Below are positions 368-60,980 of a DNA stretch of 64,000 nt, in pieces. The notes under the pieces are model-generated. The model was not told the DNA's origin, searched no databases, and saw nothing but the letters and a program-made list of their open reading frames with translations. Origin of the DNA: Amphibalanus amphitrite (Eukaryota > Arthropoda > Thecostraca > Balanomorpha > Balanidae); NCBI RefSeq assembly GCF_019059575.1, contig NW_024881613.1:682001-746000 (forward strand), read 5' to 3'. Position numbers and translations under genes: made by a program. Position 1 is the first letter of the stretch; each line of letters opens with the position of its first letter.

Positions 368-427
368 TACGATGTCGGGAAGACCGCCTCTCACACCAAG
401 TGTCTTCAGAACCAGTTTTGCTTTATG
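368..427 (+). CDS. Gene 1 exon 2 (Cys-rich module, first part)
   Basis: The acceptor gtttcag (361-367) and donor gtaagt (428) bound 20 codons carrying the pair CLQNQFC. Exon 2 of gene 2 has the equivalent CLKQEEC at the same place relative to its introns, which is why I number this as exon 2. A first exon with a signal peptide is not present in bases 1-360. Confidence 0.8.
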
Positions 428-3400
428 GTAAGTGCAGAGTGGCGGGCAGGACAAAAACTTTATAACCATGGCACGTACAAAACAATGGCTTTGATGGTAC
501 CGATGGTCTACTTTTTGTGATTCATTAGAGGGCAGATAGATGTCACTTAGCGGATAATTTCATATGACTGCTAAAAACGGTTGCTCTGATTTCCCTTCTC
601 TTTGTGTTAGGAGAGAATCGTGTATTTGTTGTAGAAGTAATCCAGGTGCGGGTTCGATTACGTGAATATGATTTTATCAATCGTGAATTTATTTTGCATT
701 ATATAGTATTTTACTTTGTAGTACTTGACAATGCTTACAATGGTACGATGACTAAGCCACCGCAGCCGAAGAGTGCCATGCCGCATTTTTGTCGTTTATT
801 GCATTGACATTTCTGCTTCTTTTGATGACGTGGGATTAAACTCCCCGATCGGCAGTAATGCCACAGACAATTGACGGATGCCAGTCGAATCGTGGCGACT
901 TTTTGCGGCCGCTCAGTAACGAGCTGGGCCTGCCAGCTGAGCAGTAGTGCGGTTCACTTGTGGTCCCATGTGTTGATGCACTTGTGGCCCGGTCTGTCTG
1001 CGCACCAGTCTGATATCGTGTCCCGGGGCCGCTCTCCTGCTCTCCTCTGCTCTTGCGCGGCCGTCGTCCTGCGTTCCTCTGATCTGGCGCGGCCGTCGTC
1101 CTGCTCTCCTCTGATCTGGCGCGGCCGCGGCCACGAGTCTGGCGTGCGGCCGCTGCGGGCCGGCAGGCAATGAACGACCGGCAAACGGCGCCCACCAGCT
1201 GCCCACTTTGGGCGACGCACGGCAACGGCCATTTATAGGGTACTAAACCGCAGCATTCAGAATAACCCGATCTGTTTGCATGCAATGGTGGCTCTCGAAG
1301 CGCCCGCGGCGGCGCGCCGGTGTGCAGTAGTGCTCCGGAGGGCTGTCCGCCGGCCATCCCTGTCTTCTGGCCGCGTGTCAGCGCCGCTCAAATGGCCGCA
1401 GCCGGCCCTCAGACGCGACAGCCTTCTGCGAAGCCGAGCCGCTGGAGGAGCGGTGGCGAGCCGGACTCAGCGCGGCGCGTCCAATGGCGCCGCCGGCTGA
1501 AAGCGCGCGCCGTCCGCTGGCATCACCATCCGAATGCATTCCAGGCGCGCGCGGGGGCTTTATTCGTGGTCGCCCGCCCGTAGTAAAGCCGGGCGGATCC
1601 CTGGCGGAGCTCGCTCGGACACGGGCGCGGCTCGCGCTCTGAGAGCTCTGATGGTGAAGGGTGGGTGAGCTCCGGTAGGTCACAGCGCCGCGGCCGGGCC
1701 GGTGTGTGACCCTCCCCGGGCGGCGCGGAGGTCCGCTCGTGACCCGCCGTGTGACCCTCGGCGGCGCGGCTTCCTGCGCAGCCGGTAGCGCGGCGGTTCG
1801 CTCCGTCGCTAATCAAAGCGCTGGCATCAACAACAGCCGGGCGGCGCGGCGGCGGCGCCGGGCCCCGAGGCCGGTCCGTCAGCTGGCGCGCCACTGCCCA
1901 GTAATTGTCCGCGGCTCGCCCGCGGCACCCGCCCGCCATAAGGACGAGAATCCCGGCCGCGCCGGGCGGCGAACACCCTTACGGCCACGCACCGGCGGCC
2001 AGGAGTAATTACCGTGGTCTTGCGTCGGTAGGGGCCATTAAGGCCCACCGTGGCCCCGTGTAATATGCCCCTGTGGCCCGGCGGACGGCCGGCGCCGGTT
2101 ATGCTAAGAGAACCGGGCGGCGTCTGTTCGGGTAATATCAGAGAACTGGCCGGGTTGTGTTTGTCCGTGCGGCCTGTGTCACCGGCCGCCACTCTCCAGA
2201 GCAAATACGCACACCGCGCGGCCGATGAAAGCCAGTCATTAGAGCTGCGATCAGGATCAGGCGATTACACGCGCCGCGGCGGCGGCTAATATGAAGCCTC
2301 GGCGGCGATCGTGGCGCGATGCCGCCGCGGAGACGAGAAGGAGACTGGGAGGAGGCGAGGGGAGACGGCGGAGCTGCCGCCGCCGGACGACATAATGCGT
2401 GTCCCCACTGGATAACATCAGGTGCCGGTGGAGGCCGTGGGTGGGTAATGACACCTGGACCTTCAAAGTGCCGCCGCCTCTGTGTCGCGCCTCCCCACAC
2501 CCTCCCCCTCTGCCCTTCCACCCTGTCGCCAGCCATCATCTCGCCGGCGTGATCGTCCCGAGATGGGCGGCCCCCCGCTCCGGCCGGCGCGCGGCGCGGC
2601 GCGGCGCTCTCTACTGTCTGACCGTCCGTGCCCCTTTGTCCGCAGTGCTGGGAGAAGTGCGCCTCGCTGCAGGACGTGCTGGCAGCCAAGTTCACCTCCT
2701 GTGACCGCGTCCCGGACTGTGTAAGTATTTGCCCGGCTGCATGGCTGGCCGTCGGCCGGCGGCGGCGCCGTGCGCTCGCGGCCCTCATCTATCGCCACTC
2801 TCGCTGGCACTGGTCGTGACTGGCGTTTAAAGAAAGCGTTGTCGGCACTCGCTGGGCCTGACATCACAATTCTGCGAAACCGCCGGGCGCTGGCGGCGTG
2901 GTGTGGCTCGGCGCTGTGCCAGGACCGCCGCCGTCCACCGGTCCCGGCCCTCCGGTGTGCGAGCGGCGCCCCGGACCCTCCGAGCGGCCCTGGGACGCTG
3001 CGCCCGGCGTCCGCTCTAAGTAGTATCGTTTAATTGCGTGAGTAGGCTGTTCGAGGCTTTTATAATGACGCAGTGCTCTTGCCAGTACAAAAGAGCAATG
3101 GCATCGCGAGCGCTATAAAGTGCAGGCGTATTAGGGCGTAATGAGTCGGCCAGTTGGGCGAAAAACTCGTCACTCGGGCGACATAAAGTCATAAATTCAC
3201 GCCACGGCGGGGCATTCAGAGCTCACGCCAGCGAGACGGCTAGAATCTGGCTCTGAGGCCAGCAGGAGATTAGTCACACGCAGAGATATCCTCACCGGAG
3301 ATTCCTGAGTCATGCGTGGATACGGTGACTTGGCCAAGTAAGAACGGTGTTGAAACGGAATCAGTGAAAAATCTCGCGAAACATCTGCTATCCAGCTTAT

Positions 3401-6400
3401 CCAGCCGTGGTTTTGCAATGTGCAGCGCGCTTGGAAACCTTCCACCATCATGCACCTTTTCATACAGGCCACATGTCAAGAGTGTTTTCTGTACTTGTTC
3501 ACATTTTTGCTGGCCATGCATCCATGCGTCGTTCAAAAGGCGTTCCTAATTCTTATTATCGGCGGTCGTAATTTGTGTTATCTCCAGTCATTTGTGTTTG
3601 CGTTCATTATCGATGGATTCAGGGCCTCGGCTAACATGTTAACTACTGGGGCAAATGCCCCAGTAGAGTCGAGGAATGCCCCAGTAGTGGTCAGGCTTTG
3701 CCCAACCTCCACAAAATAAGAATATACCAATATTAACGTACATTCTTTCATTCGGGAGCGGTTGAAGACGTTTGTGGCAAGAAATCAGAGGCGGCGGAAG
3801 AGGGAGTGCACGGTGTGCAGCTGCACCCTCAATTTCCATCCAAAAACATAGGCGTGCATTGGCAAACATATCTTTTTCCACCCCATAATCCATCTTCGTT
3901 CGAAAGAACGTCAAAAATAATGACGAAATTACTTCGGCCACTTTTTTGGTCAGGTCAAAGGTCAGGTCATGGTGATGGCCAAATTTCGCCGATTTTCAGG
4001 TCGAATATCGACAGTTTACAAGATGCCGACGCATAACTCGGGAACCAATAAGAGCTACAGCACCGCGGAAAAGCGCATTTGATAGCCATATTAGCATGCT
4101 TTCTGGCTATTTCTCTTAGATTTGACCTAACGTCAACGGTTTTGCCTGCAAGGGGCAAAAACTACCAAAATAGACGATTTTTTCGGGAGCAGTTTTTTCT
4201 GCAATAACTTTTGACTCATGCCTTGCACGAGCTTTCTTTTACCGACATCGTATTCCTCTCGTCAAGACGCATCAAATTGACTAGAATTTGACCTTGAAGG
4301 TCAACTTGAAAATTCGACCTCAGGTCAAGGTCATGATCTGACCGGAAGTTGTCATGTTGCATATCAGTCGATCTGCATCGTCGAGCCAAACACAACTATG
4401 GCATTTTCATCGATCTAGCGTTACTCTTTCAAAAGTTATTCGCGAAAAACTGTTAGATACCTACCATTCGTGAACTGAGATGACCTCAGGGGCATAAACA
4501 AGGGTCACGGGTGCTATTTTCATGTTCAGTGTGTCAAAGTCGCGTACAGTGTTTTATAGTGTTTAGAATAGCTTACATCCAAAAGAGGTGGTTTTGAATT
4601 TTCTCCCATTGACTTATAATAGAGGTCGCAAAATTGAGCTGACCTTAGGTCACCGATATGAAAATTCCGAGATATAAATTTTGTACATGCTGTTGCCCTT
4701 ATCAATCGCTGAAAGTTTCAAAGCGATATGTCACTCGGTGTAGCTACGGCATACATTGAAACATTTTATGAGGTGAGGTCACTTGAAGTGACCTGGTGAC
4801 CTGATGTTGAATGACCTTGGTCTGAAATTTTTACAACACGTGTAGAATTGATGGATGATGGAGCGCCGCCGTTTTTTAGATATCCGCGAAAAACCGCAGG
4901 AAAACCCGCAGGTGTTCAACCCCCCAGCAGGGCGCCAACACACTTTGACGATTTGCCCCAGTAGTCAAAATTCCTTAGCCGAGGCCCTGGATGGATTGAC
5001 GTTCAACAATCATCATTGCTAAATATAAAGTAGCTTTAGATTATTCTGAGTGAATTGTTGAAACACAAATTAAAAAGAAAATGCACCTTGATGCCCGACA
5101 TCATAACAATGTTGTAAATTTCCAATTAGTTATTTTGTATGTGTTCGAGCATGTGTCATGATAACTTTCGGCAGTCTACAACTTTGTTGCTAAGATTACG
5201 CCTGTATCGCGCACCCATCACCTTTCAGGTCCTAGTCTGCCCTGACCTGATCTGACCTGTCCGGTGGCCTGTTGCAGCGTGACGTGGGCTGTCAGCTGGC
5301 GTGCCGGTTCCACGCGTCTCCGCCGTCGGCGCCGCGGCTACTGCCGCTGCTGCCCGTCCGGCTGGACGTGCAGTTCGGCTGGTCAGAGGCCCGCTGGACG
5401 GTCACAGAGGGCGGCGACTCACAGCTCTCCCGGCGCGGCAGCATCGTCTACCTGCTGCTGGCCAAAACCGGAGACCAGTGGAAGGAGCTTGTCCAGGTGA
5501 GAGAATGACGACGACTCGCTGGGGGATTATATTTGTACATTTGACGTGGATAGGCACTCATAAGCAGTTGCGATTTGACGCGATGGCCTGAAATTTGTCA
5601 TTTTCTTATTCGAATTTGCCGTTAAACATACCGCCAAATGAGCTCTTATCAACTTTCAATCAGTCTCCTTCGTTTTATATGCAGTTAAAACCCTTCTCAC
5701 GCTTAAATTCACACGCTTACCCAAGTTACGCTGACCACTCTCCCAATTCTCACCACCCCTCTTTCTCTCGTCAGACCCCGGAGGTCAGCGTGGTGCTGAT
5801 CAACCTGCCGGCGGGCACGACGCTGCGCCTGCTGGCGATGACGCGCCACGGCCAGCTGACCGCCATGGAGACCGTGTTCGCCCCCACCGAGCCCGACCAG
5901 CTGGTCCTTGACGTGCAGGACAACCGGCTGCCCGGGGACCAGGAGCGCCAGATGGAGACCTACCAGATCGAGGTGGGCACGGGAGCGCGAGTACCTACCA
6001 GATAGAGGTGGGTAGCGGGAGCGCGAGTAGCTACCTGATAGAGGTGGGTACAGGCGACCAGGAGCACTCAGAGATGGAGATCTATGAAATAGAGGTGGGT
6101 AACGGGAGTCAGAGAAAGCACCAGATCGGGGCCGGTAAAGGGTCGGGGAACGTCCCGCGAAGTCGGGGAACGTCCCGAATAGATGTCAGCAAGTGAGTCA
6201 GGAGACAGGGAAGGTAGTTTTGTCGTGTCTCAGGGAGAGGTGGAGTTACCGGAGACCTGTGACTACAAAAGCCCGAGGACTTATTACAAAGTGTTTGGAA
6301 TTACGGGGTGATGGTTGGGGAGAGGGAGGGACGTGACGTAATGGACGCCACGAACGTCAGAAACTCACAGATATTGCCTTATTTTGGATTTTGGAGCGGC

Positions 6401-9400: not shown

Positions 9401-12268
9401 TGGTCGCCTGATTGGCCTGGGAGGAGCACGGCGGCGGCGGCGGGGCGGTGGGCAATCGGCCGGGGGTGGGCGGTTAGCGCGCGCGGTGGGTGATGGGCTC
9501 TGTCGGCTCTCTCGCTGCTGTTATTGGCCTCGGCCGGCCGACTGGTGTCGGAAAGTTTGACGGGCGCGGCAGGCCGCGTGCTCGGCGCACCAGACGCACT
9601 AATGAACACCTGGACTCGTCAAACGTCGCCTCTTGACGCCGGCTTTGACAGACAAATGACGGGGAGGTGCGCGTGCCGCGGTCCATGGGCTGATCGGCCC
9701 TCACTGATACTGAGTCGCCGCCCGGCCCGCACACCGCCCGAGGACCCGGCCGCCGTCCGCTGCTAGAGAATTTATGCAGATAACTGGCGTCAAAACCGCC
9801 GTGTTTGCTGTCAAATAGCTGTGGCTCCAGCCCACCGCCGCTGGGCGGGTTAGTGGGCTTATTTGCGCGACCTTTGCCATCAGTATTCAGATGTATGACC
9901 GCGCCGTGCTCGTCCGTATGCTACATTAGACGAGATAGTTGCGGGTAATTTTCGAGCCGTGTTGTCACTTAAACCAGCGGTCTCTTTGATGCGTGAAATC
10001 GTTGTTTGTCTCGAGAAGAACAAATGGCTGGCAATTAAAGAGACATTTGAATCTCAGGCAAATGTGCCCAGATGACGGTTTAATATAAGCCTGAATATAT
10101 CATCTCATCTTGAGTATGCTGATTGCGATGCTATGAATTTATCATCTCATACATCTGGGCCATAGCTCATCGTCTCCGGGTGCATAAAGCCATCGCTGAG
10201 AATTGTAACAAAACTAGTTCCTTTTTCATCTAACATGAGATGTTTTAGTTCTTGGGCAGTTACCGTGCCGGTAACAGGGTATTTCTCATTGCTCGGATTT
10301 AGAATGTTATTCATAATTTGTCAGTCTATCACGCCACGTTCACCCCATCCCTTATGGTCACACGTCTCCCCTCTGCGCGGCAGATTCCCGGCGCCTGGCT
10401 GCTGGAGACGGTCTCTGTTGCCCGCGACGACAACATGGTTCTGGCCGAGGTCAGCTGGCAGCCGCAGACGGCCGGTCTGGCAGAGTACCTCGTCACCTGG
10501 GAGGTCAGCGGCGGGGGCATCAAGGGCCACCTGTACACCGACATGACGTCTGTCACACTTAGCCTCTGGCCAGAGTCCATCTATAACATCCAGGTGAGTT
10601 ACTGGAGGGGAAGGGGACGAGAGGGAGGGGTGGAGGTCCCATATCGTGAGCCGGATCGCTCCGTTCCACTCGAGATAAATGCATCTGATGTGGGATTTAC
10701 GGCTATAACACTTTTAGGGACACGAACGTGTCGCGTGCCTGGAATATCATTGCGGCGTTATCAGCGCTATATTATCTGAACGCCGAACATATGCCATGCA
10801 GACTCGTATCGCGCCGCCGAATGGAGCCCGCCTCGATAGCATCGGATTCGAAAACACTTCTTTATCACTGCGAGCGACCATCAAAATTACATAAACGTCC
10901 CACCAAAGCGGCGGCCGGCGCGGCCAGCTCGGTTTGATGGCCGTCCGAGGCGCTATGGCAGGGGCTTGGCGGCTCGTCCGGGCCGGAGCTGCGGCGAGCT
11001 GCAGAGCTCAGCCAGCGCCGGGGCTCTGGCGGATCTCGGCGGTCGCGCCGCTGTATGACCCAGCCGGCTGCCCCGCCCGTCTGCCGCGCTCGCCGCTCGG
11101 CCCACACGCTCCTCTGACGAGGTTTTTGCTCCCGCTCGGTCGGCCACCGCCCCGCAGCGTCGGAAAAACTGCACTGGTTTGCGCCGGCCGCGGCTCCGCG
11201 CTGCGCGTGCCAGGTGCGGCGGCTCACGCGACGTCACTCGATCGGCACCGGCTCAGTCGGACGTAAATGGATCTCAATGGGGCCGTCGGCATTCCTGGCG
11301 CGACGCCGGAGAGCGTCGGCCGGGCGCGGCGCGAGCAGAGACCAGCGGAGGACCGGCCGTCCGCTCCGCTCCGGTCCGGTCCGGAGCGCCGGCCGCTGCC
11401 ACGGGGCGTCTTCGCCGCGCTCTCTGACTTATGGCGCGAGCGACTCCGCTTTGGGCCGGCTCGGCCGAGTAACTGCATCCTAATTGGCGTTATTAAATTT
11501 TGCAGCGAGCAATGATGCAGCCCGATGATAAATCACCACTCTACGATGCACAAGTGTGATTATTTGCATTAGTTTGATTCAGCGCGGAGGCCGGCCGGCG
11601 GCCCATGTGCCTCTCGGCGATCCGACCGCGCCAACAAATCTAAATTGGCGCTAAAACCCGTCGGTAATTAGTGGGCTGCGGCCCGTGCCGGTCGGCCGGC
11701 GGACCACCAGCAGATGAGCGGCCTTCGGGTCGGCCACCGCCGCTACCGCCGGCGGCGGCGCGGCGCGGCGGCGCTAGTTCGCCCGCCGGCCACCCGCGGC
11801 GCTAGTGAGCCGGCAGCTGGTCTCTCGCCCGTCCGCCAGAGGCGCTGAGTGCTGACTGTTTCTCTGTTTGTCCACCAGGTGGAGCTGATGGTATCGGAGG
11901 AGGGCGGCGAGCCGCTGAGGTCCGTACCGCTGGTTATCAGCACATACAGCGTGGCCGAGACGGGCCCGGCCGGCCGCGCCGTGCGCAAGGTGCCGCGCTC
12001 GGCGCTGGCCGGCGGACCGGCTGGCCAGCGGCTGCCGCTGGGCGACGCGGCGCTGCTGGCGCTGCTGCTGGTGGCGCTCTGCTGCACGGCCCTCTGCGGC
12101 CTGCTGGTGACGGCCCGGCAGCGGTGCGCCGTGCCGCGCCGGCCGGCTGCCGGGCCTCCGGCGCCCCGCCTCCTCCCAGCAGTGTCCCGCTGCGTGGCGC
12201 ACAAAACGGTACCCTCGCCACTAGATGTCACTGCGATCGCTGCCATACACCCGCCCCGCCGGCTCTGA
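368..12268 (+). CDS. Gene 1: Cys-rich, two-FnIII, single-pass membrane protein (5' partial, six exons in window)
   Basis: Exons are 368-427, 2646-2720, 5278-5496, 5775-5972, 10384-10593 and 11879-12268, giving 383 codons and a TGA stop. All are multiples of three, joined by phase-0 GT-AG introns. The start and signal peptide must lie before the window, by comparison with the paralogue at 46782-60980. Visible protein: cysteine-rich module (residues 1-54, eight Cys: 12, 18, 21, 25, 39, 45, 50, 54), first FnIII-like domain (about 64-155), second FnIII domain (about 187-285), transmembrane helix (309-331) and a 52-residue tail. The Cys spacing C-x5-C-x2-C-x3-C followed by a C-x3-C resembles, from memory, the anosmin-1 (KAL1) N-terminal cysteine box, but there is no WAP domain and anosmin is not membrane-spanning. 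The likely role is cell-surface adhesion or signalling; this is inference. The introns are invaded by transposons. No AATAAA is seen in the 250 bases after the stop. Confidence 0.85.
428..2645 (+). other. Gene 1 intron 2, GC-rich
   Basis: This phase-0 intron is extremely GC-rich from about 1020 to 2700, so it shows long chance open frames on both strands with low-complexity Arg/Pro/Ala translations. Apart from the 32-bp tandem repeat at 1055-1130 I see no gene, RNA or mobile element in it. Confidence 0.6.
1055..1130. repeat. 32-bp minisatellite in gene 1 intron 2
   Basis: Two near-identical 32-bp units beginning gcgcggccgtcgtcctg, at 1055 and 1087, are followed by a partial third unit at 1119. 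They differ at only two or three positions. Confidence 0.8.
2646..2720 (+). CDS. Gene 1 exon 3 (Cys-rich module, middle)
   Basis: The acceptor ends tccgcag (2645) and the donor is gtaagt (2721). The 25 codons start CWEKC and end CDRVPDC, matching CWASC and CKLNKAC of gene 2 exon 3, with 13 against 12 residues between the second and third cysteines. Confidence 0.9.
2721..5277 (+). other. Gene 1 intron 3 with an inserted hAT-like element
   Basis: This phase-0 intron of about 2.6 kb includes a complete 1370-bp non-autonomous element at 3620-4989. The remaining intron sequence shows no gene. Confidence 0.7.
3612..4997. mobile_element. Non-autonomous hAT-like transposon, including its 8-bp target duplication
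   Basis: The element proper is 3620-4989 (1370 bp). Its ends are CAGGGCCTCGGCTAA and the reverse complement, and the perfect 8-bp duplication GATGGATT lies at 3612-3619 and 4990-4997. An 8-bp duplication with CAGGG ends is typical of hAT elements. Subterminal copies of ACTACTGGGGCAAAT occur just inside both ends. The interior has no transposase frame but many AGGTCA/TGACCT half-sites. It is inserted in intron 3 of gene 1, away from the splice sites. Confidence 0.88.
5278..5496 (+). CDS. Gene 1 exon 4 (end of Cys-rich module, first half of FnIII-like domain 1)
   Basis: The acceptor ends gttgcag (5277) and the donor is gtgaga (5497), giving 73 codons. The start, RDVGCQLACRF, closes the cysteine module and matches SAGCRQACDF in gene 2. 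A Pro/Leu-rich linker follows, then beta-strand-like sequence with LDVQFGWSEARW and SIVYLLLAKTGDQWKELVQ, as expected for the A to C' strands of an FnIII domain. Gene 2 has no counterpart of this FnIII half. Confidence 0.9.
5775..5972 (+). CDS. Gene 1 exon 5 (second half of FnIII-like domain 1)
   Basis: The acceptor ends ctcgtcag (5774) and the donor is gtgggc (5973), giving 66 codons. VSVVLINLPAGTTLRLLAM reads like the E and F strands of FnIII. The end of this exon together with its donor is repeated three more times in the following intron. The first donor is preferred because readthrough meets an in-frame stop 11 codons later. Confidence 0.85.
5930..6130 (+). repeat. Tandem copies of the exon 5 end and its 5' splice site
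   Basis: The block ACCAGATCGAGGTGGG at the exon 5 boundary recurs as ACCAGATAGAGGTGGG, ACCTGATAGAGGTGGG and ATGAAATAGAGGTGGG. Donor-like GT sites lie at 5973, 6008, 6044 and 6095. The last copy also repeats upstream exon sequence (gaccaggagc...gatggaga). Use of any later donor would bring in a stop in the gene 1 frame. Confidence 0.8.
6591..9116. mobile_element. Long-TIR DNA transposon with broken transposase (element 6599-9108 plus 8-bp duplication)
   Basis: The ends TAGGGTGTGTCA and TGACACACCCTA extend into imperfect inverted repeats of roughly 200 bp that share the run gaagcccattgg and the motif ggcgcccggcgtt. Both ends are flanked by the perfect 8-bp duplication TTGGTCAA (6591-6598 and 9109-9116). 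An 8-bp duplication points to the hAT or P type of DDE transposon; I cannot assign the superfamily. Transposase remnants lie inside on the - strand. The element sits within intron 5 of gene 1. Confidence 0.85.
6950..8400 (-). pseudogene. Broken transposase of a YFDGR / DGKTSGP-type DDE family
   Basis: Collinear pieces on the - strand fall in different frames. 8400-7795 (201 codons) has SLFRKLFDIARCRC and PPAEIAFLRDQRGVRKMRLG; 7598 to about 7370 has ELKAMYFDGRHDQT and EEHVAKVAEPGNEYL. A shifted frame from about 7370 to 7160 has DGAAVNTG, then WFACQLHSNELVLREVF and LDGKTSGPGSFTGPLGK. A further frame at about 7090-6960 has SSDQLLLYQL and EAWKKIGPLNHTRW-like sequence. I recognise these motifs from a widespread family of uncharacterised arthropod and cnidarian transposon proteins; YFDGR and DG are plausible catalytic-acid motifs. 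There are at least two frameshifts and the C-terminal part is missing, so it is not functional. Confidence 0.7.
9295..9356. repeat. 31-bp tandem duplication
   Basis: Two copies of a 31-bp unit containing ggttaccagattggacagc, at 9295-9325 and 9326-9356, differ by one base. Confidence 0.85.
10384..10593 (+). CDS. Gene 1 exon 6 (FnIII domain 2, strands A to F)
   Basis: The acceptor ends gcgcggcag (10383) and the donor is gtgagt (10594), giving 70 codons. VLAEVSWQPQTAGLAEYLVT and VTLSLWPESIYNIQ are a canonical FnIII core (Trp in strand B, Tyr in strands C and F). It is strongly similar to gene 2 exon 5: EYLVTWEVSGGGIKGHL against SYLVTWELRSGGLRGHL, and LSLWPESIYNIQ against LSLWPDEDYVVQ. Confidence 0.93.
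10594..11878 (+). other. Gene 1 intron 6
   Basis: This phase-0 intron of about 1.3 kb is GC-rich from 10900 to 11450 and produces several overlapping chance open frames. No repeat, RNA or mobile element is recognised. Confidence 0.6.
11879..12268 (+). CDS. Gene 1 exon 7 (end of FnIII domain 2, transmembrane helix, tail, stop)
   Basis: The acceptor ends tccaccag (11878), and 129 codons end in TGA at 12266-12268. VELMV and PLVISTYSV complete the FnIII F and G strands. A juxtamembrane linker follows, then the hydrophobic segment ALLALLLVALCCTALCGLLV and a basic stop-transfer (TARQRC). The cytoplasmic tail of about 52 residues is Pro/Ala/Arg-rich and has no recognised signalling motif. Confidence 0.9.
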   Translation: MELMVSEEGGEPLRSVPLVISTYSVAETGPAGRAVRKVPRSALAGGPAGQRLPLGDAALLALLLVALCCTALCGLLVTARQRCAVPRRPAAGPPAPRLLPAVSRCVAHKTVPSPLDVTAIAAIHPPRRL

Positions 12269-16874: not shown

Positions 16875-16876
16875 TA

Positions 16877-20713: not shown

Positions 20714-20719
20714 GTCCGC

Positions 20720-39098: not shown

Positions 39099-40165
39099 CT
39101 GATCTCTATATGTGACCTGATCTTCAGTAGATCGACCTTAACACTCTTGGTGAAGTTGTTATGATCCGCGCATGAACTGACGTCAAAATTCAGACCATTG
39201 CTCGGTGTCATCCCTCATGACTTGACATGACCTGACATCTACCCGTCCTGACCCTCCTTCAGCGCGTTGTGACCCATGACTTACGTTAAATGTCATAGCC
39301 CCCCCCCCCCCTAGGGGCGCTGCCATGTCAGGCTGTGTGAAGGCTGTGTGAAATGGGTAAGCTTAGCCATGTCACACAGCCTTCTTTCCGGCTCCAAATA
39401 CTGGCCCCATCACTCATGAGCTCACCCACCGCTGCCCCTGACGGAGTGCTCTGGCGGTGTCACCGGCGCCATGACCGACCGGTTACAAGTGCGAGATGAC
39501 CGACACCGTCTGAAGAGCCAATTGAGCCCCATCTGCGGGCGATTGGCTCCAATGGCTGACCTCCAGCAGCAGCGGCCGTCGGTCGACTCTCCAGTAGCAG
39601 TTAGAAGGAGCGGCTACTCCTCAGCGCCAGTCGACTCCCCAGCTCCAGCTCCAGTTCCAGCCGGCAGCGGCAGTTACCGACTCTCAGAGCCAGTCGACCC
39701 GCCAGCTCCAGCTCCAGTTCCAGTCGGCAGCGGCAGCTACCGACTCTGATAAATAAGATCTAAGTCGGACAGTACAGCAGTTAGACGGCGGCACGGCAGC
39801 GGCATCTAGCCCAGCGCCGATCTAACAGTCAAGCGAAGTGGCCAGAGCCCGTACCGTACTGTGCCCGAGCTTGTCCAATTGTTGGCGTGCCTATCGGCGA
39901 GGCATTTCTATTTCACTAGAAATATCTAGTTCTTTAAAGAACTTAAAATACGTGGTTTTCAGTACAGGAAACAGAGTGAGCTCGATAACCTTCCGATCTC
40001 GAATTCATGGTGTTTGATACCTGTGTCCACAACGTTATATTTTATATATTTACTTAGCACTTTATGGGATTTTCACCTGTTGGCGATTGATGAATCATAA
40101 GATTGTACAATGTGAATATTTGCCATTATTTGAATATTCGCCCATTTAATTGTACCATTCCACGA
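39099..40165. other. Intergenic DNA with a 63-bp duplication
   Basis: Contains a C-run (39300-39312) and a two-copy 63-bp repeat (39626-39751). The 92-codon open frame over it is repeat-encoded, Pro/Ala/Ser-rich and not supported as a gene. Confidence 0.5.
39626..39751. repeat. 63-bp tandem duplication
   Basis: Two copies beginning gccagtcgac at 39626 and 39689, about 90 percent identical by eye. Confidence 0.85.
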
Positions 40166-41206
40166 TTAACCCTCGCCGGACCTATTGGTTTTCTACACAC
40201 GCGCCGGCCGAGGGGGGGGGGGGGGGGCGGGTACGACCCCCCCTCGCCGTTTCGCCCCTGGTGGAGCTAGCGCGTCGCGGAAAAAACGAGCGTGTGCGCC
40301 GTTACGAGACGCAGAGATTGGTACCCGATTTTAAGGTCCTAGGTCAACCGGTGACCTCTGAGGTCAGGTCAAGTGCCCCAAGGTACGGTTCAGTTTTTGG
40401 TGAATAACTTCGCAAAAAACGACCGCAGAGCGCCGATTTTGGCAGCATCGTGTTCGTCTCGCTCAGGCGCGTCGAATGATATACGTTTTGTCCGGGTCAG
40501 GTCAACTTGGGGTGTTGACCTCAGGTCAAGGTCAGGTCAGCACCCCCAGGTCACGAAGTTGGTCGAAAGAGGTCATGTCGCATATCATTCGATTCGGCAG
40601 GTCTTCTTGAGTCCATTGGTGGCTTTCCCGATTCGCTAACTCAATTTGATCAAGAGTTATTGACGAAAAACTAATATGACCTTGATGACGTCACAAATGA
40701 CGTCACGCAAGGTCAACATTGCAAAAGTGACGCATCTAACCTTGCAAGGAGTGCATAAAACCACGATTCTGTGTGCTTGAGATAGTTGTAGATCGTTCCC
40801 GGCGCCAGAATAGCAGTTTTCATTTTTCCCCATTGACTGATAATGGTGAGGTCACGAAAATGACCTGACCTCATATGACCTTTAGGAAAAATCCGAGATA
40901 TACAAGTTGTGGGACTCATAATGGATACTAGATCCTGCAAGTTTCATTTCCCTGTGACATCTCCTCTGGCAGTGAGGGCGTTGCGAAGTTGCGACATCTG
41001 AAGACCGTGCAGAGGTTCACTTGTGACGTCATAGGTCAGTGACCTGACCTGACCCAAAAATGCGGTTGGTGTCAAAAGATGCGGCTTGGATCAAAGGTCA
41101 GGTATGCCAAGTTTCAGCTCTCTATCGCCAGCGTGTTCGGAGCTATCGCGAAAAAACCCTATGGGGGGGCGGCACCCGCCCCCCCCCCTCGGCCGGCGAG
41201 GGTTAA
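40166..41206 (-). mobile_element. piggyBac-like TTAA element C (inverted relative to B and E)
   Basis: The element proper is 40170-41202 (1033 bp), with TTAA on both sides. Ends, subterminal G/C-run hairpins (40213-40243, 41164-41190) and interior match B and E in reverse orientation. It carries AGGTCA-G-TGACCT at 41033-41045. There is no transposase. Confidence 0.92.
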
Positions 41207-41895: not shown

Positions 41896-41897
41896 TA

Positions 41898-42841: not shown

Positions 42842-42843
42842 TA

Positions 42844-46781: not shown

Positions 46782-47126
46782 TCACCGGCGCGCGTGTGAT
46801 ATCACAAAGAGAGGCGCCATCCGCGCCGCGGCCACCGCCTTGCCCGGTGGTCGGAGGACACCGTCCACAGTCCGGTTCCTCGCCAGGAGGTTCCTCACGC
46901 GGCACTCCCGGCGGCCCTCCTCCAGCGGCAGCAGGTACTCGGCACTCCTCCGCCGCCGCTCGTGGCACGCCAGCGCGCAGCAGCCGACCACGGCGGCGGC
47001 CAGACACGCCAGCCCGACGGCGCCGACGGCGAGAGTCGCTGCCGACGGGGCCGCGAGCTTCTCCGCCGGCAGCGGCGTCTTGGTGCTGACGAACAGCGGC
47101 TCGCTGGCGTCGTCACCGTTGAACAC
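46782..47126 (-). CDS. Gene 2 exon 6 (juxtamembrane, transmembrane helix, tail, stop)
   Basis: The acceptor on the - strand ends ttttcggcag just before 47126. The 114 codons and stop begin VFNGDDASEPLFVST. The hydrophobic segment ATLAVGAVGLACLAAAVVGC is followed by HERRRR stop-transfer residues and a tail with EYLLPLEEG. The placement equals gene 1 exon 7, which shares the EPL near its start. Confidence 0.87.
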   Translation of the reverse strand: MFNGDDASEPLFVSTKTPLPAEKLAAPSAATLAVGAVGLACLAAAVVGCCALACHERRRRSAEYLLPLEEGRRECRVRNLLARNRTVDGVLRPPGKAVAAARMAPLFVISHARR

Positions 47127-50100
47127 CTGCCGAAAATAGCACGCGTGTTAGCTCAAGGATGGAGAGAGACAATGCACAATGACGGGCAGTTCACACCTGG
47201 CTTCGACAATGACGACCGAAATCACCCGAATGAACGGATAAATCTGGAGCTAGACACCTAACCCGAATCTACTGCATCATTTCTAGAAACGCTGACGTAA
47301 CTGTCACTGCACACTAAGAACCCATCGCATTTTTAGTTCTGTCTTTGCTTTCCCCGCCACATCATGTCATGGCATCGCTGTGCCGCCTCCGGTTCGGCGA
47401 AGACCTGAGTCACCAGGCGGCCTGCACTGTCGGAGGTCTGCAGCCGCCACACGAGCGGGGGTCGCTCCCACGCCTGGCTCAGTCCGCACGCGAGGCTCAC
47501 CTGCACCACGTAGTCCTCGTCCGGCCACAGAGACAGGCTGACGCGGGGCTCCTCGGAGACCAGGTGGCCCCGCAGGCCGCCAGAGCGCAGCTCCCAGGTC
47601 ACCAGGTAGGAGGCGTCCTGGCCGCGCGCCCGCCAGGTCAGGGTCGCAGAGACCAGCGGTGAGCCGGGCTCGATGGACGAGAGCAGCGGACGCCACCGAG
47701 CCTGTGTGCAGAGGAGAGTGTCAGTCACAGAGAAAGTGGAATATATTACAGAAAAATGTCCGAACTAGTGTGGGAACGCAGTGGGTTAGGAGTGTCCTGC
47801 GCGAAATTCATCAGATGAAGATCCTCATCGGATATCGCGCACAGAAAATACACAACTGTGAGCCGCATAATCCATGGACGATTGTTATGAACCGCCTCCC
47901 ACATTCTCCCAGCCCTTTATTCCCAGCGCGGCGTTAACGAGGTGCCTCCCCTTCTTCCCTCCCAGTCCCGGCACCCTCCCCCTCCCACCCAGACATCGCT
48001 GTGACTCAGGCGAACAGGTAGGTCCCAGATCGCTATCCCCGCGGGCCCGGCCGGCAGGAGATGCGTATCTCCACCTGAGGTCGCGCGCCTCAGTGGACAC
48101 CCGATCCCCGCCCGGCGCCCCCGATAGGCATCACCGCCCAGAAAGGGTCGCGACGGCCACAAAAACACACACCGGCCGCGGGAAACAAAGGTCGACTCAG
48201 CCGGGGCGACATGGGACAAAGCGAGACAATGGCGGCGCACGAGACGACGCTCAGCGAGAGGCGCGAGACGAAATGGTGCGCGGCGGTGGTGACAGGACTC
48301 GGGGGCGTGATCTGGGTATCACCTCCCCTCTTTTCTCCGTCCACCATTGAGTATCATCGCCCTTCCCTCTTCTTCTTTCTCCGCCTATCACCTGAGTATC
48401 ATTAGCCTTCCCCTAACCTCATTTTTTACAGCCCGTCCTCAAAGCAGCAAAGTAGAACCGGCATCCCAAGAGAGTTGCGCTGGCGCATGTATTACGTAAA
48501 CGTTTTACCCTGGCCTCGTTCAACATCAAGCCCTGCGTGACCTACACACTACCGAACACCCAGTACACACCTTGTGGTCCTGCAGGCCAGAGCTGGACGT
48601 CTTCTTATGAGGCTCCGAGGGAAACGAGGGAGGCGGGCCGTACAGAAGGCTCTCCTGCGCACTGTCCGCGGATGCTGGGGATGTTACTTTCGGCCCTGAC
48701 ACAGTGGTCGTCGCCTCAGGCGCCGCCTCGGTCGATGTCTGGACGGCCGGGTTCAGCTCCGTGGTGACAGACGCCGAGGTCAGGTAGAAGTCACACGCCT
48801 GTCGACACCCGGCGGACTGGAACGGACAGACGGCGCGGTCAGTTAGCTGGCGAGGTCCGATCCAAACGTCAGGGAGTCGGACACAGGCAGGCGGTCGACG
48901 CCAACTACCACGATCGCTCGATAAATTCACTAAAACGGGCCCAGCTGATACCAATTAACATCAACTAACGGGTGTTTTCGTTGGCCGCTCTGGATGGCAG
49001 GGATTAAAATCGACACAGCTGGTTGGAATATGTGAATGCCATCGGCGGCAGATGAGATAATGTGTTACGAGTACGTTTCCAAACAATCTCCGACACAAAA
49101 GCATCATGATTTCATTTGATAGTTTGCCCTAGGGCCTAGGTCATCACTCTTGAGACGTCACATTTACGGGATACTCACGCAGGCTTTGTTGAGTTTGCAG
49201 TACTCGCGGATGTAGTGGTCCCTCTGGAACGCCTGGCACGACGCCCAACACTGAAAGGAGAAGACGACCATCAGTCAGAAGAGGCCCAGTCAGCAGGCCA
49301 TGAATCAACGACAGAGCCCCGGCTCTTCCCGCACAGCGCGACTGACTGCGACGGCAGTAAACCAACACGACCCATTCCATCAGCGCGCGCCGTCCAATTC
49401 ATTCCCAGATCGGTTCCAGTCCGAAATAAAGCACTCCATTTCCCGTTGCTCATCTCGGCCTGTCGGCCCGCGGGTTGGGACCGGTCGTCACCGCTGACAA
49501 ACGCTGCCGCTAGCCCGAGAGAGAGAGAGGACTGTGCGGCGCGCCGGGCGAGGAGCGGTCGCGTCAGCCCCGGTCTGTGGTGGCTGGAGCAGATCGGAGC
49601 CACTAAGCTGGTCTAGACTGGGTCGAGGTCGGGTTCAGTGGGTCCGGGCTGTGTTTGGGAGTGATCAGGGTCTGGTGCAGTCTGGTCAGAGGCTGGTCTA
49701 AGGCAGGTCAGATTGGTCCAAAGACCGAGCCAGGCGAGATTGGTCCTGGCCAGGCCAGATGGATAGGTGCCGGTCCAGGTCTGCTCCCGAGCGATCTGTT
49801 TGTCACCGCCGCGCCGTTTGTGCCGCCGCCGGAGGCCGGCTCCATTCTCCGGCGGCCAGCTCCATTCTCCGGCGGCCGCACGCACGGCGGCCCGAATTAA
49901 TCCCCGTCGCCGGCCGAATGGCGCGCTCCGGGCCCTGAGTCGGCAGTTCTGGCATCAAAAACGATTTAGGCCCGGCCAGGTAAGGCCCATTGACGGCCGT
50001 GGCGCGGCCGGTGGACGGCCACAAAGGCAGCATTTCACGGCCTGGCGCGCCGGCAGCGGCGGCGGCCGGGGGCGGCATTGTGGCCCGCGGACCGCCGCCG

Positions 50101-53100
50101 GGCAGGGTCTCAGCCCGCGCCGTCAGCAGGCCACTGATGGTGTGTGAAATTCGCCGACCGGCCGGCTCACCCCTCGCCGTGTGATCAGCAGGCCCTGATC
50201 GCGCCGCCGACCGGAAAATGGCCACAAAGGGAACAGTGGCCCCACCGGCCGGCCGCCGCTCCACCGGCCGCCACAAACACCCGGGAAAGAGAGAGCGCCA
50301 ATCGGCTCTGATGATACGCACATCCGCTACCGGCACCCTGATGGATTGTGGTGAGTGCCGCCGGCGCGGCAGTCACCTGGCCGCCCGTGGGACGGGGCGG
50401 GGGCGGGGGCGGGGGCGGGGGCGGTCAAGGGGCAGAGAAAGGTCCGGCCGCTCGGCAGCCGCAGAGAACGCCCGAACGCGCGCAGATGGGAGATAACCGG
50501 GCGAGGTGTTGACACGGCAGATGCGATCTGCCCAAGGTGTGAGGTATGCGGTTTATCTCAGCCGATTGAAAGGGTTCCCCGGGTTTTGAGGAGGCTTATC
50601 TCCGCCTGCGGACGGGGTGGATCGATCGCTCGGTGATTGGGGAGGTCGCGGGCGTCTCTCACTCACCCGAAGGCATTCCTCCTGTTTGAGACAGCTGGCC
50701 TTTGAGCCGTCCGAAGTCAGCTGAAACAGAGAGAAAGGGACGTCAGTTCGGCGGCCCGGTCGGTTCCAACAGCGTATCAGGCATGGAAACAATGCTAATC
50801 ACGGGCTATCGAGCTGGGCAGCACCGGTCGAATGGTCTCTTAGCGAGCCCTTAATTATAACACCAGCAGCGGCACCGGGGCGGTCTCACACCCCTCGGCA
50901 GGCCAGTCTCCACGGGTAATGACACCGTCTCTAAGCGAATGGAGCCACCCGTCGGCAGTTCCTGCAGTAAAAACAGCAATTACGGGGTTCGATTGGGGCG
51001 TCCGGCGGGTCGGGGGCGGCCAACCGTTTGGCAGAGACCCACACCCACACTGAAAGAAAAAATGACACCCTGTACGGGGTATTGACGGTCATGTCAAAAA
51101 TAACACCCGAGTGGGGTGTTTTGAGGGGAGTCGCTGAGCTATTATAAATGGGGTGTTCGGCGTACACCCCAGAAGGGTTTCGACGCATAGTGGGGAGTCG
51201 CAGCCGCTAAAGGGGGGTCAGCGCCGGCCCACATGGGGTTCCGTTAGACTGCAGGTGACACCCCTCAAATATCAGCCGAGCACCCCTTTTTGGTCCCTAA
51301 GCACCCGACAGGGTATCAAACTCCCAAATTAGGGTGTAAAATATAGCAGCTCAACTCCCCTATTTTTCTGATTTAACTCCCCATATTGTTCCTGACCCCC
51401 ACGCGGGGAACCGCGCGCCTTCAGCAGGTAATCTCTCAGAGAAGTTTCACTCCCCTATACTTCCGAAAAACTCCCGGCGAGGATTAAATGTCCTTCGGAA
51501 CGAGAATCTCAGACTATATTTATAACCGGGTGAGGAGTTACTCTTTCCGTTCGCGGCCTTGCGGCGCCCTGTAGTGTGCACGACCAACGTATGACACGGT
51601 AATCAGTCTAGATATCATCATGATATAGTTGGCCACTCTACGCTATGCACGCTTTTGCCTTAGCTGCAAACATGCACCAGCCATTCGTGAAAAACAGGTC
51701 CCGATTTTACCAACTTTAGTTTGCGCCATCTATCGGTAGGATTTGAAGCTGAAAACACGGGGTGTCACTCCAGGATAATGACACCCCAGAGGGGTTTCAA
51801 CGGGGGTGTCTCAGCGACACTCCAATTTTTTGGCCTGCAATTTTTGGGGAGTTCGCTAGCCGAACCTCTCCCAAGGGGGTCATGTACATTTTTGCGGCGT
51901 CAAAAGGTAATGGGGCTCCCGTGTCGGGTGTCACAACACCCATGACATCCTAAAATCATGAAAACGGAGCCTAATTTAGGAGTATTTTGGAGTATGTGGT
52001 GTCAGATTGTAAGAAATGGGGTTCCCCGATTTTTTTCAGTGCAGGCGTCCGGCCGGCCCCCGCGAATTAGCCAAACTCCGCCTCAAAGGGCGGCGTTTAG
52101 CGACTGCGGGGCACAGCGCGAAAACAGGATAATCTATTCACGCGGGCGCGGCCGGCGGCGGCTCGGGTCTGCCGGGGTGCCGAGGAGCAGCTGTCGACAG
52201 CGGGAGCCGCCGCGCGCGAGACCGATCGGACGTTTACGTCTCTGTCGTTATTTTTATCGTTTCACGGCTGTTGGCCGGCGCGTGGGTAGGGTGGTGGATA
52301 GAGGTCAGCCTTCTGCTGATGGGATTTGGGGGTGTCGCAGATAGTTGGTAGGGCCGACGCGGTTCCTGTGACGCCTAACGTCTCTGTCGCCCCGTCCACA
52401 CGTCTACTTCCAATAGGATCGTTATCACTCACTAAAGCAGGCTATACCGGAGACGACCGGACTATGCAAGGCCATGAGCAGGCGATAATGGAGACGACCG
52501 GACTATGCAAGGCCATAAGCAGGCAATACCGGAGACGACCGGACTATGCAAAGGCCATGAGCAGGCGATACCGGAGACGACCGGACTATGCAAGGCCATG
52601 AGCAGGCGATACCGGAGACGACCGAACTATGCAAGGTCATAAGCAGGCTATACCGGAGACGACCGGACTATGCAAGGTCATAAGCAGGCTATACCGGAGA
52701 CGACCGGACTATGCAAGGCCATAAGCAGGCGATACCGGAGACGACCGGCTCATAATCAAGCTCTGCATTGAAACGACATCATTGAGACACTTGTTATTAA
52801 ACTTGAGATAAAAAGCCAGTTTGACTCAGCAGGTTAAAGTCGGTATGACTGGGGTAAGACATAAGCGGAAAGCAGCTCCGTATAGCATTGCCTTCGTAAC
52901 GTTGTCTTCGTATACGAAGACAACGATTGCATTGCTAGAGGCGTGACGCAAAAACCGTCAAGTGACACACCCGGATAATGCATGTAGTTTGAGAGAAAAC
53001 TCTGTCTGGGGGCTCAAACATAGCTCTGGTATTGCAGCCGGCATTCGGCAGTACCGGGAACGACGGGAGCATAAGCGAGCTATATATACTGAGCTGATGA

Positions 53101-59100: not shown

Positions 59101-60980
59101 GACGCCGGCCCGGCGGGCGTTACTTCCGGCCGTCACGGGCCAGCCGGCGACCGGTGGCGGCCGGTGGCTCCCACGGAACCGTCCGGGAAGCGCCGGGAAC
59201 CGGCCGGCTCCCATGTGCAACTTCCGCGCTCGGTGGGAGCCGGCCTGCGCCGGCTCCCAGCCGTAACGGGCGAACGGTTGGCGTCCCACCGGCCGCCGCG
59301 GCGGAGCGACTCTCCCAGCGCGGCGCCGGCGTGGGCACCGGCCGTGTACTACAGCGGGCACGGGCTCTCCCAGCGGCTCGTCCGCTAACGACCGGCGAGC
59401 GGCCGGCCGTGCGGTTTACCGGCAAGAAGCCGGCGCGGTCACAGCGCGCCGCTTTCCCAGACCTCGGCGCCGCGCTTCTCGTTTTTGCGTTATAAACACA
59501 ACTCGGATCGTTCCCCTCTGGCGGAAGAGAAAATTGCGCCGACTCCGCGCCCGGCTACGTGCCCCATCGAGGCACCTGTTCCGTGGCCGGCGTGACGCGG
59601 CCACCACAGCCAGCTGTACCGCCACCACAACCACACGGAAACCCTGCAACTCAGCCCGGCAAAACTGCCGGTAAAAAGGACACACCATGAGCGCTGACGT
59701 CGGTCCACCGGTTTCCTGCGCAGCGCCGCTGAAAAGTGCGGCTCTGAACCCATTCAGCCGGCGATCTTTAAGCCGATAGCGTTTCATCGGCTCGGCACGG
59801 CCGAACAAAGCCGCCGCAGCCGGTGGCTCGCAGGCCTCAGGAGGTGGCGTGGTCGCGGAGCCTCGCACCGGTTCGCCGACGCGTTACGTCAGCCCCGGGT
59901 ACAACTTTCCGGCGAACGGCGCTCCGCGCGAGCGGCCGCTTTGGAGGCCGGCAGGCGACAGGGAAAAGGGTGGCTATAGGCGAACGAAATCAGAGCTAGA
60001 TGTCGAGATAAGGACTCGTCTCGCGTATAAATGACGGGAAAACTGGCGCAGTAACGCCGTCCAACCGAAACGTGCATGGACGGATTGATGTTATCCATAT
60101 GTGCGAGGCATTGACATTGTCAGCATCGACTTCAGCGAAACGACGCCGTTGTGGCGGCCGTTCGAAAATTATGGTAGCTGCCCGATCAACATTAGAGTGA
60201 TGATTGCTGATATCCGATTGTGCAGCTTACCCGCAATACATCGCGAGTTAAAGAAATGTGTCAAATTAACATGAAGGAACACTTTATATCGGAGGGTAAC
60301 ACCTCATTTGATTCATGGATAAACAGACACAGAAGAATAAGATATAAATTTTAAGGGAAACACCGATCTCAGCAGACAAACTAGAGCTTTGCCATGGTAG
60401 GAGGGGCAGAGTTCAAAGACATGTCAAGACCGTTGCTAGATCAAGATATGTTTAGCGATATCACCTCTTTTCACTAAGCCTTTTCATTAAATTGGCATTA
60501 AAAAAAGATTTCCTGTTCACCATTTATTTTTCATCATTGCTAAAGGCAATGCTGACAAGCATCGAAATACAAGCGGTTTTGACAATGTGCATAAAAAAAC
60601 GGGTTCTGTAGACTGCAGAGATAAATTATTATGTTCCTGTTCATCTTGAAACGGGCAGTTCATCCGTTGTCATATTAGTTAGTACGAAGTACCTGGACGG
60701 GCAGGCGAGCCAGTTACTTCGTACTAACGTTTCAGCAAACCCTTTAAAAACTTAGGACTTGTCATATTAGTGTATGCAATTCGACACATACCAATGTGCC
60801 GTGAAGGTCACACATCAACAGGTTAGACTAGCTAATAGCCCATCTCATCAGAGCTCAACTCACCTTCCTGGAGCACTGAGCGCGACATTTGGCCACGAAC
60901 GCGTCTCCTCCGCTGCCGGCGGCGATGGCCGTCCCCTGAAGCACCCACAGCAGCGCCAGTAAACCCCCGCAGGCGCGCAT
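46782..60980 (-). CDS. Gene 2: Cys-rich, single-FnIII, single-pass membrane protein (complete, six exons)
   Basis: Exons in transcript order are 60980-60864, 50720-50667, 49250-49179, 48816-48571, 47701-47501 and 47126-46782, giving 344 codons plus stop, all with phase-0 GT-AG introns. Protein: signal peptide (about 1-21), cysteine module with ten Cys (32, 36, 49, 55, 58, 62, 75, 81, 85, 89), Ser/Thr/Pro-rich stalk (about 94-163), one FnIII domain (about 164-235), transmembrane helix (258-283) and a 61-residue tail. The order C-x3-C, C-x5-C-x2-C-x3-C, C-x5-C, C-x3-C-(D/E)-F is like my memory of the anosmin-1 cysteine box. It is clearly paralogous to gene 1, with matching exon boundaries in the Cys module and FnIII, but lacks the first FnIII domain. 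A cell-surface role is inferred; no gene name is claimed. Confidence 0.85.
47127..47500 (-). other. Gene 2 intron 5, with open frame continuing from exon 5
   Basis: From the donor gtgagc (47500) the exon 5 frame stays open for 55 codons to a stop at 47333-47335. Its first 26 codons include VSLACGL and RPPLVWRLQTSDS, which would complete an FnIII G strand as in gene 1 (PLVISTYSV). Later phase-0 donor candidates follow 47414 (gtgact) and 47405 (gtcttc). Bases 47127-47332 hold nothing recognised. Confidence 0.55.
47501..47701 (-). CDS. Gene 2 exon 5 (FnIII domain, strands A to F)
   Basis: The acceptor ends ctgcacacag and the donor is gtgagc, giving 67 codons. The FnIII core SATLTWRARGQDASYLVTWE and SLSLWPDEDYVVQ aligns closely with gene 1 exon 6. 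The donor is chosen because gene 1 has its intron at the identical residue; the exon may extend to 47414 or 47405 instead (see the intron 5 entry). Confidence 0.85.
47702..48570 (-). other. Gene 2 intron 4
   Basis: Phase-0 intron of 869 bp; GC-rich chance frames only, no repeat or gene recognised. Confidence 0.6.
48571..48816 (-). CDS. Gene 2 exon 4 (end of Cys module and Ser/Thr/Pro stalk)
   Basis: The acceptor ends ccgttccag and the donor is gtgtgt, giving 82 codons. SAGCRQACDF ends the cysteine module. The rest is rich in Ser, Thr, Pro and Ala (for example STEAAPEATTTVSGPKV), with no FnIII strands, and looks like an O-glycosylated mucin-like stalk. Gene 1 has an FnIII-like domain in this position. 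Confidence 0.88.
48817..49178 (-). other. Gene 2 intron 3
   Basis: Phase-0 intron of 362 bp; nothing recognised. Confidence 0.6.
49179..49250 (-). CDS. Gene 2 exon 3 (Cys module, middle)
   Basis: The acceptor ends tcctttcag and the donor is gtgagt, giving 24 codons from CWASC to CKLNKAC. It is the counterpart of gene 1 exon 3, with the same intron positions and phase. Confidence 0.9.
49251..50666 (-). other. Gene 2 intron 2
   Basis: Phase-0 intron of 1.4 kb. GC-rich at 49800-50500; a degenerate ctggtc/gggtc repeat occupies about 49610-49770 and a GGGGGC repeat lies at 50394-50424. No gene is seen. Confidence 0.6.
50394..50424. repeat. GGGGGC hexanucleotide repeat
   Basis: About five tandem units of gggggc; a potential G-quadruplex within intron 2 of gene 2. 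Confidence 0.9.
50667..50720 (-). CDS. Gene 2 exon 2 (Cys module, first pair)
   Basis: The acceptor ends ctgtttcag and the donor is gtgagt, giving 18 codons ending SCLKQEECLR. It matches gene 1 exon 2. Confidence 0.88.
51048..52041. mobile_element. CACTG-ended non-autonomous element
   Basis: The left end is CACTGAAAGAAAAA; the right end TTTTTTTCAGTG is its imperfect inverse. Both are flanked by CA, and the length is 994 bp. The interior is full of GGGGTGT and ACACCCC blocks. CACTG ends with a 2-3 bp duplication suggest the EnSpm/CACTA type, but the duplication is too short to be firm. Confidence 0.6.
52253..52437 (+). repeat. 185-bp direct repeat, copy 1
   Basis: Identical by eye over 185 bases to 55186-55370. 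It starts tttatcgtttcacggc and ends atcactcactaaag. No coding or structural identity is recognised. Confidence 0.92.
52438..52752. repeat. 41-bp minisatellite
   Basis: Roughly seven copies of a 41-bp unit with the core accggagacgaccggactat and caaggccat(g/a)agcagg. It begins immediately after the first 185-bp repeat. Confidence 0.92.
52900..52925. repeat. 26-bp perfect palindrome
   Basis: Perfectly self-complementary; half-site CGTTGTCTTCGTA around the TATACG centre. Confidence 0.9.
53338..53630. repeat. 67-bp tandem repeat with a dispersed third copy
   Basis: Copies at 53360 and 53427 are 67 bases apart and near identical (ttttattggtttgccattaa...). A third, partial copy at 53571 also has the preceding ctgaaatttgaccagta block. 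Units contain an accggagtcgaccgg variant of the 41-bp minisatellite core. Confidence 0.85.
55186..55370 (+). repeat. 185-bp direct repeat, copy 2
   Basis: Second identical copy, 2933 bases after the first; the sequences flanking the two copies do not continue to match. Confidence 0.92.
57481..57569. repeat. 11-bp minisatellite
   Basis: About eight units of aagggccggag with acggtccggag variants. Confidence 0.85.
60678..60728. repeat. Hairpin-forming inverted repeat
   Basis: The arms GTTAGTACGAAGTA and TACTTCGTACTAAC are extended by CTGG/CCAG with one unpaired base per side, around a loop of about 13 bases. It lies about 140 bases downstream of gene 2 exon 1, in intron 1. Confidence 0.85.
60864..60980 (-). 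CDS. Gene 2 exon 1 (start, signal peptide, first Cys pair)
   Basis: The start is ATG at 60980-60978. The 39 codons give MRACGGLLALLWVLQGTAIA, a typical signal peptide, then KCRAQCSRK. The donor gtgagt follows 60864. An in-frame ATG at 61046 would add 22 charged residues before the hydrophobic core, so the 60980 start is preferred. Confidence 0.85.

Follow-up and report, generated by a model that had tools for sequence, protein, structure and literature searches.

Membrane proteins with fibronectin type III (FnIII) domains include adhesion receptors and type I single-pass co-receptors, which serve here as the general class for comparison. A more specific point of reference is the cysteine (Cys) box of anosmin, with its C-x5-C-x2-C-x3-C core and flanking C-x3-C pairs. 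In the anosmin literature, the protein is described as a signal peptide followed by the Cys box and FnIII domains (PMC3580776, PMC1629024), and its orthologues vary from two to four FnIII domains. The same texts assign the main role in DmKal-1 to the FnIII repeats and a modulating role to the WAP domain, and describe anosmin as working with heparan sulfate and the fibroblast growth factor (FGF) receptor (PMC1629024, PMC3580776). Eight cysteines are given for the human Cys-rich region, four of which are present in DmKal-1 (PMC1629024). Here we describe two convergent genes, A and B, in a 64,000-nucleotide stretch of the genome of the barnacle Amphibalanus amphitrite (the window; C116:682001-746000, where C116 stands for contig NW_024881613.1; GC content 0.52). 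Their products probably belong to a small and so far undescribed family of arthropod type I membrane proteins with a role in adhesion or as co-receptors.

Gene A lies on the plus strand and encodes 428 residues, its first exon being located about 4.2 kb upstream of the window, whereas gene B lies on the minus strand and encodes 300 residues (Table 1). A search of the genome (807,550,619 bases, 2644 contigs) with the FnIII exon of A returned six places at E<=1 (six of six candidates scored), corresponding to three copies of A and three of B on C116, C608 and C860. Exon boundaries were set by reading frame and by conservation of the splice borders against C608 and C860, the two other loci with the same FnIII exon; this comparison also decided the least certain donor sites, which are those of exon 5 in A and exon 4 in B. 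All 11 introns (six in A, five in B) are of the GT-AG type and fall at codon boundaries, and none of the six coding sequences contains an internal stop. For either gene, the three assembled copies support the models with open frames and with GT-AG borders at corresponding positions. Because the exons were picked as whole codons, phase 0 is built into the models; its support comes from the agreement of the borders with those of C608 and C860 rather than from RNA. A previous sequence-only reading of this DNA had proposed two related genes in opposite, convergent orientation with the same exon plan, all in phase 0. The pair and its phase-0 introns were recovered, but with seven exons in A and six in B the plan is not identical.

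The FnIII exons of A and B align with a score of 125, compared with a mean of 25.4 and a maximum of 53 among shuffled sequences (0 of 2000 reach the score). The blocks in these exons that had been called near-identical agree at 8 of 12 residues as quoted, and the whole exons at 25 of 67. Both proteins also contain a Cys box of the form C-x3-C-x(12-14)-C-x5-C-x2-CW-x2-C-x(11-14)-C-x5-C-x(3-4)-C-x3-C, whose ten cysteines are invariant across the four aligned sequences (two A and two B, with the C860 haplotypes left out). The matching Cys modules noticed earlier were found as quoted, joined across introns (CLQNQFC-FM/CWEKC in A and CLKQEEC-LR/CWASC in B, the slash marking the intron), and the splice borders cut the box at the same points in both genes. 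The similarity of the boxes (score 85) is reached by none of 2000 full shuffles (maximum 64) and by 5 of 2000 shuffles that preserve the cysteines (maximum 92). Judged by their sequences, A and B are paralogues. They most likely descend from a common gene predating the duplication of the convergent pair to a second locus (see below), and their arrangement fits an inverted duplication. Pattern searches for relatives of the FnIII exon gave six matches in viral contigs and 18 in prokaryote genomes, none of them confirmed, and the 501 bases around this exon had no match in plasmids; animals are not expected in any of these sets.

All six models start with a hydrophobic, signal-like N-terminus; towards the C-terminus, each has a single strongly hydrophobic segment with a tail of 52-63 residues behind it. 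Both features are predicted from hydropathy, which peaks at 2.86 over 19 residues in A exon 7; for this analysis and the hhalign comparisons below, the A protein of C860 was used with an exon 5 of 21 residues, which is too short (50 residues in the codon comparison). In A, the signal-like start is followed by the Cys box, FnIII-like unit 1 (exons 4-5), unit 2 (exon 6 and the start of exon 7), the predicted transmembrane helix and the tail. The proposed order of Cys module, FnIII-like sequence and membrane anchor was thus borne out in the models, the anchor by hydropathy. We looked for a B counterpart of A exon 5, which comprises 66 residues in the window versus 50 in C608, and found none. The idea that one copy had traded an FnIII domain for a mucin-like stalk holds insofar as B is without one FnIII unit at both loci. 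The stalk itself did not materialize, since the linker in place of unit 1 in the window comprises 27 residues with 41% Ser/Thr, versus 36 residues with 25% in C608. Between the FnIII unit and the membrane, B has 143 residues with 24% Ser/Thr in C608 and about 21 residues in the window. The last exon of B was located through hydropathy, not by similarity search; its start (VF) and the tail motif P-(L/I)-F-V agree with C608, while the remainder has diverged (40 of 114 aligned residues identical).

C608 and C860 each carry B on the plus strand and then A on the minus strand, convergent like the pair in the window, with about 9 kb between A and B in C608 versus 34.5 kb in the window. These two contigs are most likely two haplotypes of one locus, because collinear pieces of more than 700 bases are ∼86-92% identical between them (among the first 60 matches listed) and because a PIG-S gene on one side of the pair and a UPF0489 gene on the other (families assigned by Pfam) were each found only on C608 and C860. 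Synonymous and nonsynonymous changes and the corresponding rates (dS and dN) were obtained with a simple Nei-Gojobori script. Between C116 and C608, 190 of 376 aligned codons of A are identical (dS 0.85), as are 140 of 299 in B (dS 1.6; exons 1-5 alone 54.1%, dS 1.77). The convergent arrangement at both loci, together with the divergence of A and B between them, indicates that the pair was duplicated as one unit long ago and kept its orientation. In A, the 393 codons compared between the two haplotypes contain 54 synonymous and 13 nonsynonymous changes (dN 0.015, dS 0.19), a substitution pattern that marks it as clearly constrained coding sequence. The FnIII exon of B shows six synonymous changes and no nonsynonymous one, and FnIII unit 2 forms the conserved core, with 20 positions invariant in the six copies.

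The FnIII-like units likely carry the FnIII fold, as suggested by a weak match in profile-profile comparison. Using hhalign against seven fn3 domains from the same genome, we obtained E 0.00045 over 70 columns for unit 1 and E 0.0039 over 64 columns for unit 2, while reversed controls gave E 0.076-0.54 over at most 13 columns with probabilities below 1%. Against a profile of 25 fn3 pieces from the same genome, the probabilities were 29% for unit 1 and 19% for unit 2. The conserved Trp and Tyr of unit 2 and its L-x-P-x-x-x-Y positions are in register with fn3.

Based on these observations, we propose proteins that begin with a signal peptide and a ten-cysteine box, continue with two FnIII-like units in A or one in B, and cross the membrane by a single helix before a short tail; the Cys box and the FnIII units, as we infer, face outward. 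Such proteins would act as adhesion molecules or co-receptors rather than as enzymes or soluble factors. The membrane-proximal FnIII unit, together with the Cys box, would provide the binding face for a partner protein or a matrix glycan; we favor unit 2 because of its conservation and by analogy with DmKal-1, where the FnIII repeats reportedly lead (PMC1629024, PMC3580776). Since Pfam assigns A and B to no family, automatic annotation would probably leave these complete genes nameless. No domain was found by Pfam in the tails, nor an immunoglobulin domain in the spliced proteins.

Several results weigh against this interpretation. Pfam was run on four spliced proteins and four isolated Cys boxes (C860 haplotypes left out) and found no fn3 match at E<=10 in the four proteins, a null result that has to be read with the HMMER filters in mind, which discard most matches above E ∼0.1. 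A genome-wide fn3 search placed nothing on C116, C608 or C860 among the best 150 of 584 candidates, and HMMER with the 25-piece profile left the A and B proteins unrecognised (best E 0.19 for A, 0.99 for the reversed sequence). The hhalign probability against the seven fn3 domains is just 33% for unit 1 and 9% for unit 2, whereas each known domain compared with the rest reaches 91-99.9% (7/7). Between the haplotypes, B as a whole is loosely constrained (35.5 synonymous versus 41.5 nonsynonymous changes over 441 codons), and exon 6 alone, with 24 synonymous and 33 nonsynonymous changes, contains most of the nonsynonymous ones. The tails differ between the loci, and a conserved intracellular partner is therefore not evident.

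Table 1. Exons of genes A and B. Positions are those of the window unless a contig is named.
Feature	Position	Strand	Remarks
A exon 1, signal peptide and first C-x3-C	C116:677635-677769 (window -4365 to -4231), outside the window	+	
A exon 2, continuation of the Cys box (YDVGKTASHTKCLQNQFCFM)	368..427	+	AG/GT borders at codon boundaries; counterparts in C608 and C860
A exon 3, CWEKC...C-x5-C part of Cys box	2646..2720	+	C608 counterpart via translated comparison
A exon 4, closing C-x3-C of the Cys box, then the first half of FnIII-like unit 1	5278..5496	+	weak 70-column profile-profile match (unit 1) to own-genome fn3
A exon 5, other half of FnIII-like unit 1, then a linker	5775..5972	+	donor chosen by C608 comparison
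A exon 6, FnIII-like unit 2	10384..10593	+	most conserved exon; 54/70 aligned residues identical with C608
A exon 7, remainder of FnIII-like unit 2, juxtamembrane segment, predicted transmembrane helix, tail, stop	11879..12268	+	
B exon 1, signal peptide and first C-x3-C	60864..60980	-	hydropathy
B exon 2, Cys box, CLKQEECLR	50667..50720	-	
B exon 3, Cys box, CWASC...C-x5-C	49179..49250	-	18/24 residues identical with C608
B exon 4, closing C-x3-C of the Cys box, then the 27-residue Ser/Thr-rich linker replacing FnIII unit 1	48703..48816	-	donor chosen by comparison
B exon 5, sole FnIII-like unit	47501..47701	-	C608 and C860 copies identical at 67/67 residues
B exon 6, remainder of the FnIII-like unit, short juxtamembrane segment, predicted transmembrane helix, tail, stop	46782..47126	-	

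The sequence-only reading had related the Cys box to anosmin, to be checked against the Cys-box and FN3 families. As for fn3, no match appeared: Pfam Cys_box (PF17869) recognized none of the four spliced proteins and none of the four isolated boxes at E<=10, again under the HMMER filters, and among the 14 candidates scored genome-wide, which define five places, none lies above the cut-off of 29 (the best, at 19.9 bits, contains internal stops). NCBIfam gave no match. In the PDB, one protein had a single chance match (E 1.1) and two profiles had none, the presence of an anosmin chain in that set being unchecked. The sub-threshold listings of Pfam are families matching the transmembrane segment (best E 0.013) and, on the Cys box, termicin, an antifungal peptide family (E 0.094 in one B protein, 2.1 in one isolated box). 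The module may well be an independent disulfide-rich binding head unrelated to anosmin, its spacing being alike by convergence, and we regard the case for this as almost balanced. The failed profile tests (Pfam Cys_box, genome, PDB) argue for such an origin, as do termicin being the sole Pfam listing on the box and the cysteine-preserving shuffles, which attribute part of the similarity between the A and B boxes to the cysteine positions. However, ten cysteines, a CW-x2-C core and an FnIII-like unit coming after it, in the order known from anosmin, are in our judgement much to ascribe to convergence.

The existence of two loci could also reflect a larger event. According to PMC11331182, barnacles underwent a whole-genome duplication, with paralogue Ks peaks at 0.8 and 1 and a mean identity of 41.58% between syntenic paralogues. 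That C116 and C608/C860 carry ohnologues from this event is possible, if somewhat doubtful. The dS values and codon identities of A and B between the loci are near the Ks peaks and the mean identity in that text, and both genes were copied together in unchanged orientation. Nevertheless, none of the three neighbours tested links the loci: for the PIG-S and UPF0489 genes no counterpart was found on C116, and a trypsin-like gene located 26 kb outside the window is most closely related to genes on C36 and C1067 (among the best 128 of 195 candidates). As a separate observation, these trypsin-like relatives, 55-57% identical, also form an inverted convergent pair (C36:1281899-1289131 and C1067:29884-38870) on contigs that are presumably haplotypes.

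In line with the claimed absence of a WAP domain, Pfam found none in the four spliced proteins and none on C116, C608 or C860 among the best 150 of 206 genome-wide candidates. Two WAP profiles built from the same genome were run in six frames over stretches of C116 (94 kb), C608 (50 kb) and C860 (60 kb) and gave a best E of 0.71; these scans are weaker than Pfam, as the control was among, or identical to one of, the profile sequences and the narrow profile scored two further control WAP domains poorly. A canonical anosmin, sought genome-wide by Cys_box and WAP profiles alone and with the surroundings of single WAP matches not covered, was not found. The five PF17869 places were rejected as candidates for it, since a WAP-like cysteine pattern occurred at none of them (∼3.1 kb each, six frames) but at four of four control WAP loci. 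It is unlikely that A and B are divergent anosmin-1 (Kal-1) genes in which WAP was lost and a transmembrane anchor acquired while the action on heparan sulfate and FGF-receptor signalling was retained: the order of signal peptide, Cys box and FnIII matches that described for anosmin (PMC3580776, PMC1629024), the number of FnIII domains there varies from two to four and the box spacing looks alike, but Cys_box and fn3 are unrecognised by Pfam, the profiles have no PDB match in the set mentioned above, no WAP was found at either locus, the box has ten cysteines instead of the eight in human or four in DmKal-1 (PMC1629024), and the proteins are predicted to be anchored instead of secreted.

We do not class A and B as anosmins, because the profile, WAP and secretion tests fail; the link consists of a likeness of spacing and the domain order. 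More speculative still, and quite improbable, is a membrane-tethered sister lineage of anosmin that dropped WAP, split into facing forms with two and one FnIII and kept the pair twice after genome duplication, as a local counterpart of a secreted axon- and epithelium-guiding protein. If the link to anosmin were true, the WAP domain and secretion would be dispensable while the rest is kept, and the pair would offer a natural test of Cys box and FnIII function at a membrane. Without it, A and B represent a clean case of a convergent gene pair retained at two loci in a highly polymorphic genome. We found no work on barnacle anosmin in the mostly non-subscription literature covered, and none on such a family among the papers listed, as judged by titles and abstract openings.

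The window also contains repeats. One of 1.24 kb (30401-31638) carries inverted ends of 162 bases (99%) on either side of a 327-residue frame, in which Pfam recognizes a GIY-YIG domain (E 1.5e-5); this repeat resembles part of a Penelope-like element. It has 95 genome matches, including separate matches of the short ends (best 40 of 293 candidates), many at 97-100% and several in inverted pairs. Three copies of a ∼1 kb dispersed repeat (33533-34529, 40215-41188 and 62923-63895) are 97-98% alike, the middle one being inverted, and related copies occur in C608 and C860 at ∼80-82%. Between A and B, at 35174-39101, repeats of 289-435 bases lie nested in direct and inverted orientation and are 88-97% alike. 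The window contains no tRNA and no Rfam match at gathering score.

Elsewhere in the genome, contig C49 carries homeoboxes of the Scr, ftz, Antp, Ubx and abd-A types (type names assigned here), a set in keeping with an arthropod, the abd-A-type one at C49:640728-640898 on the minus strand, 0.2 Mb from the Ubx-type one. Its frame stops at IKIWFQ before GTAGGT and resumes 169 bases on, after TGGCAG, with NRRMKLKKELRAVREI, so that the homeobox looks split by a short intron and not cut off. PMC11331182 reports that Abd-A is missing from four barnacle genomes, C. mitella showing an incomplete segment; an intron of this kind could underlie the reported absence.

Among described systems, anosmin-1/Kal-1 (ANOS1, DmKal-1, CeKAL-1) shares with A and B a signal peptide (predicted in A and B) and an N-terminal Cys-rich box, followed by FnIII repeats where A and B have FnIII-like units; DmKal-1 has just two FnIII and is found at the cell surface, and CeKAL-1 has a predicted glycosylphosphatidylinositol (GPI) site (PMC3580776, PMC1629024); A and B are likewise predicted to be membrane-anchored. 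They differ from these proteins in having ten box cysteines, one or two FnIII-like units and a tail behind a predicted transmembrane helix, with no WAP domain found and no Pfam Cys_box or fn3 match, and in occurring as two paralogues in convergent pairs. From the FnIII-bearing adhesion receptors and type I co-receptors, A and B are set apart by the ten-cysteine head, by FnIII-like sequences too divergent for Pfam and by having no Pfam immunoglobulin domain. With this class they share a short tail without a Pfam domain and a predicted ectodomain that places an FnIII-like unit beside the membrane.

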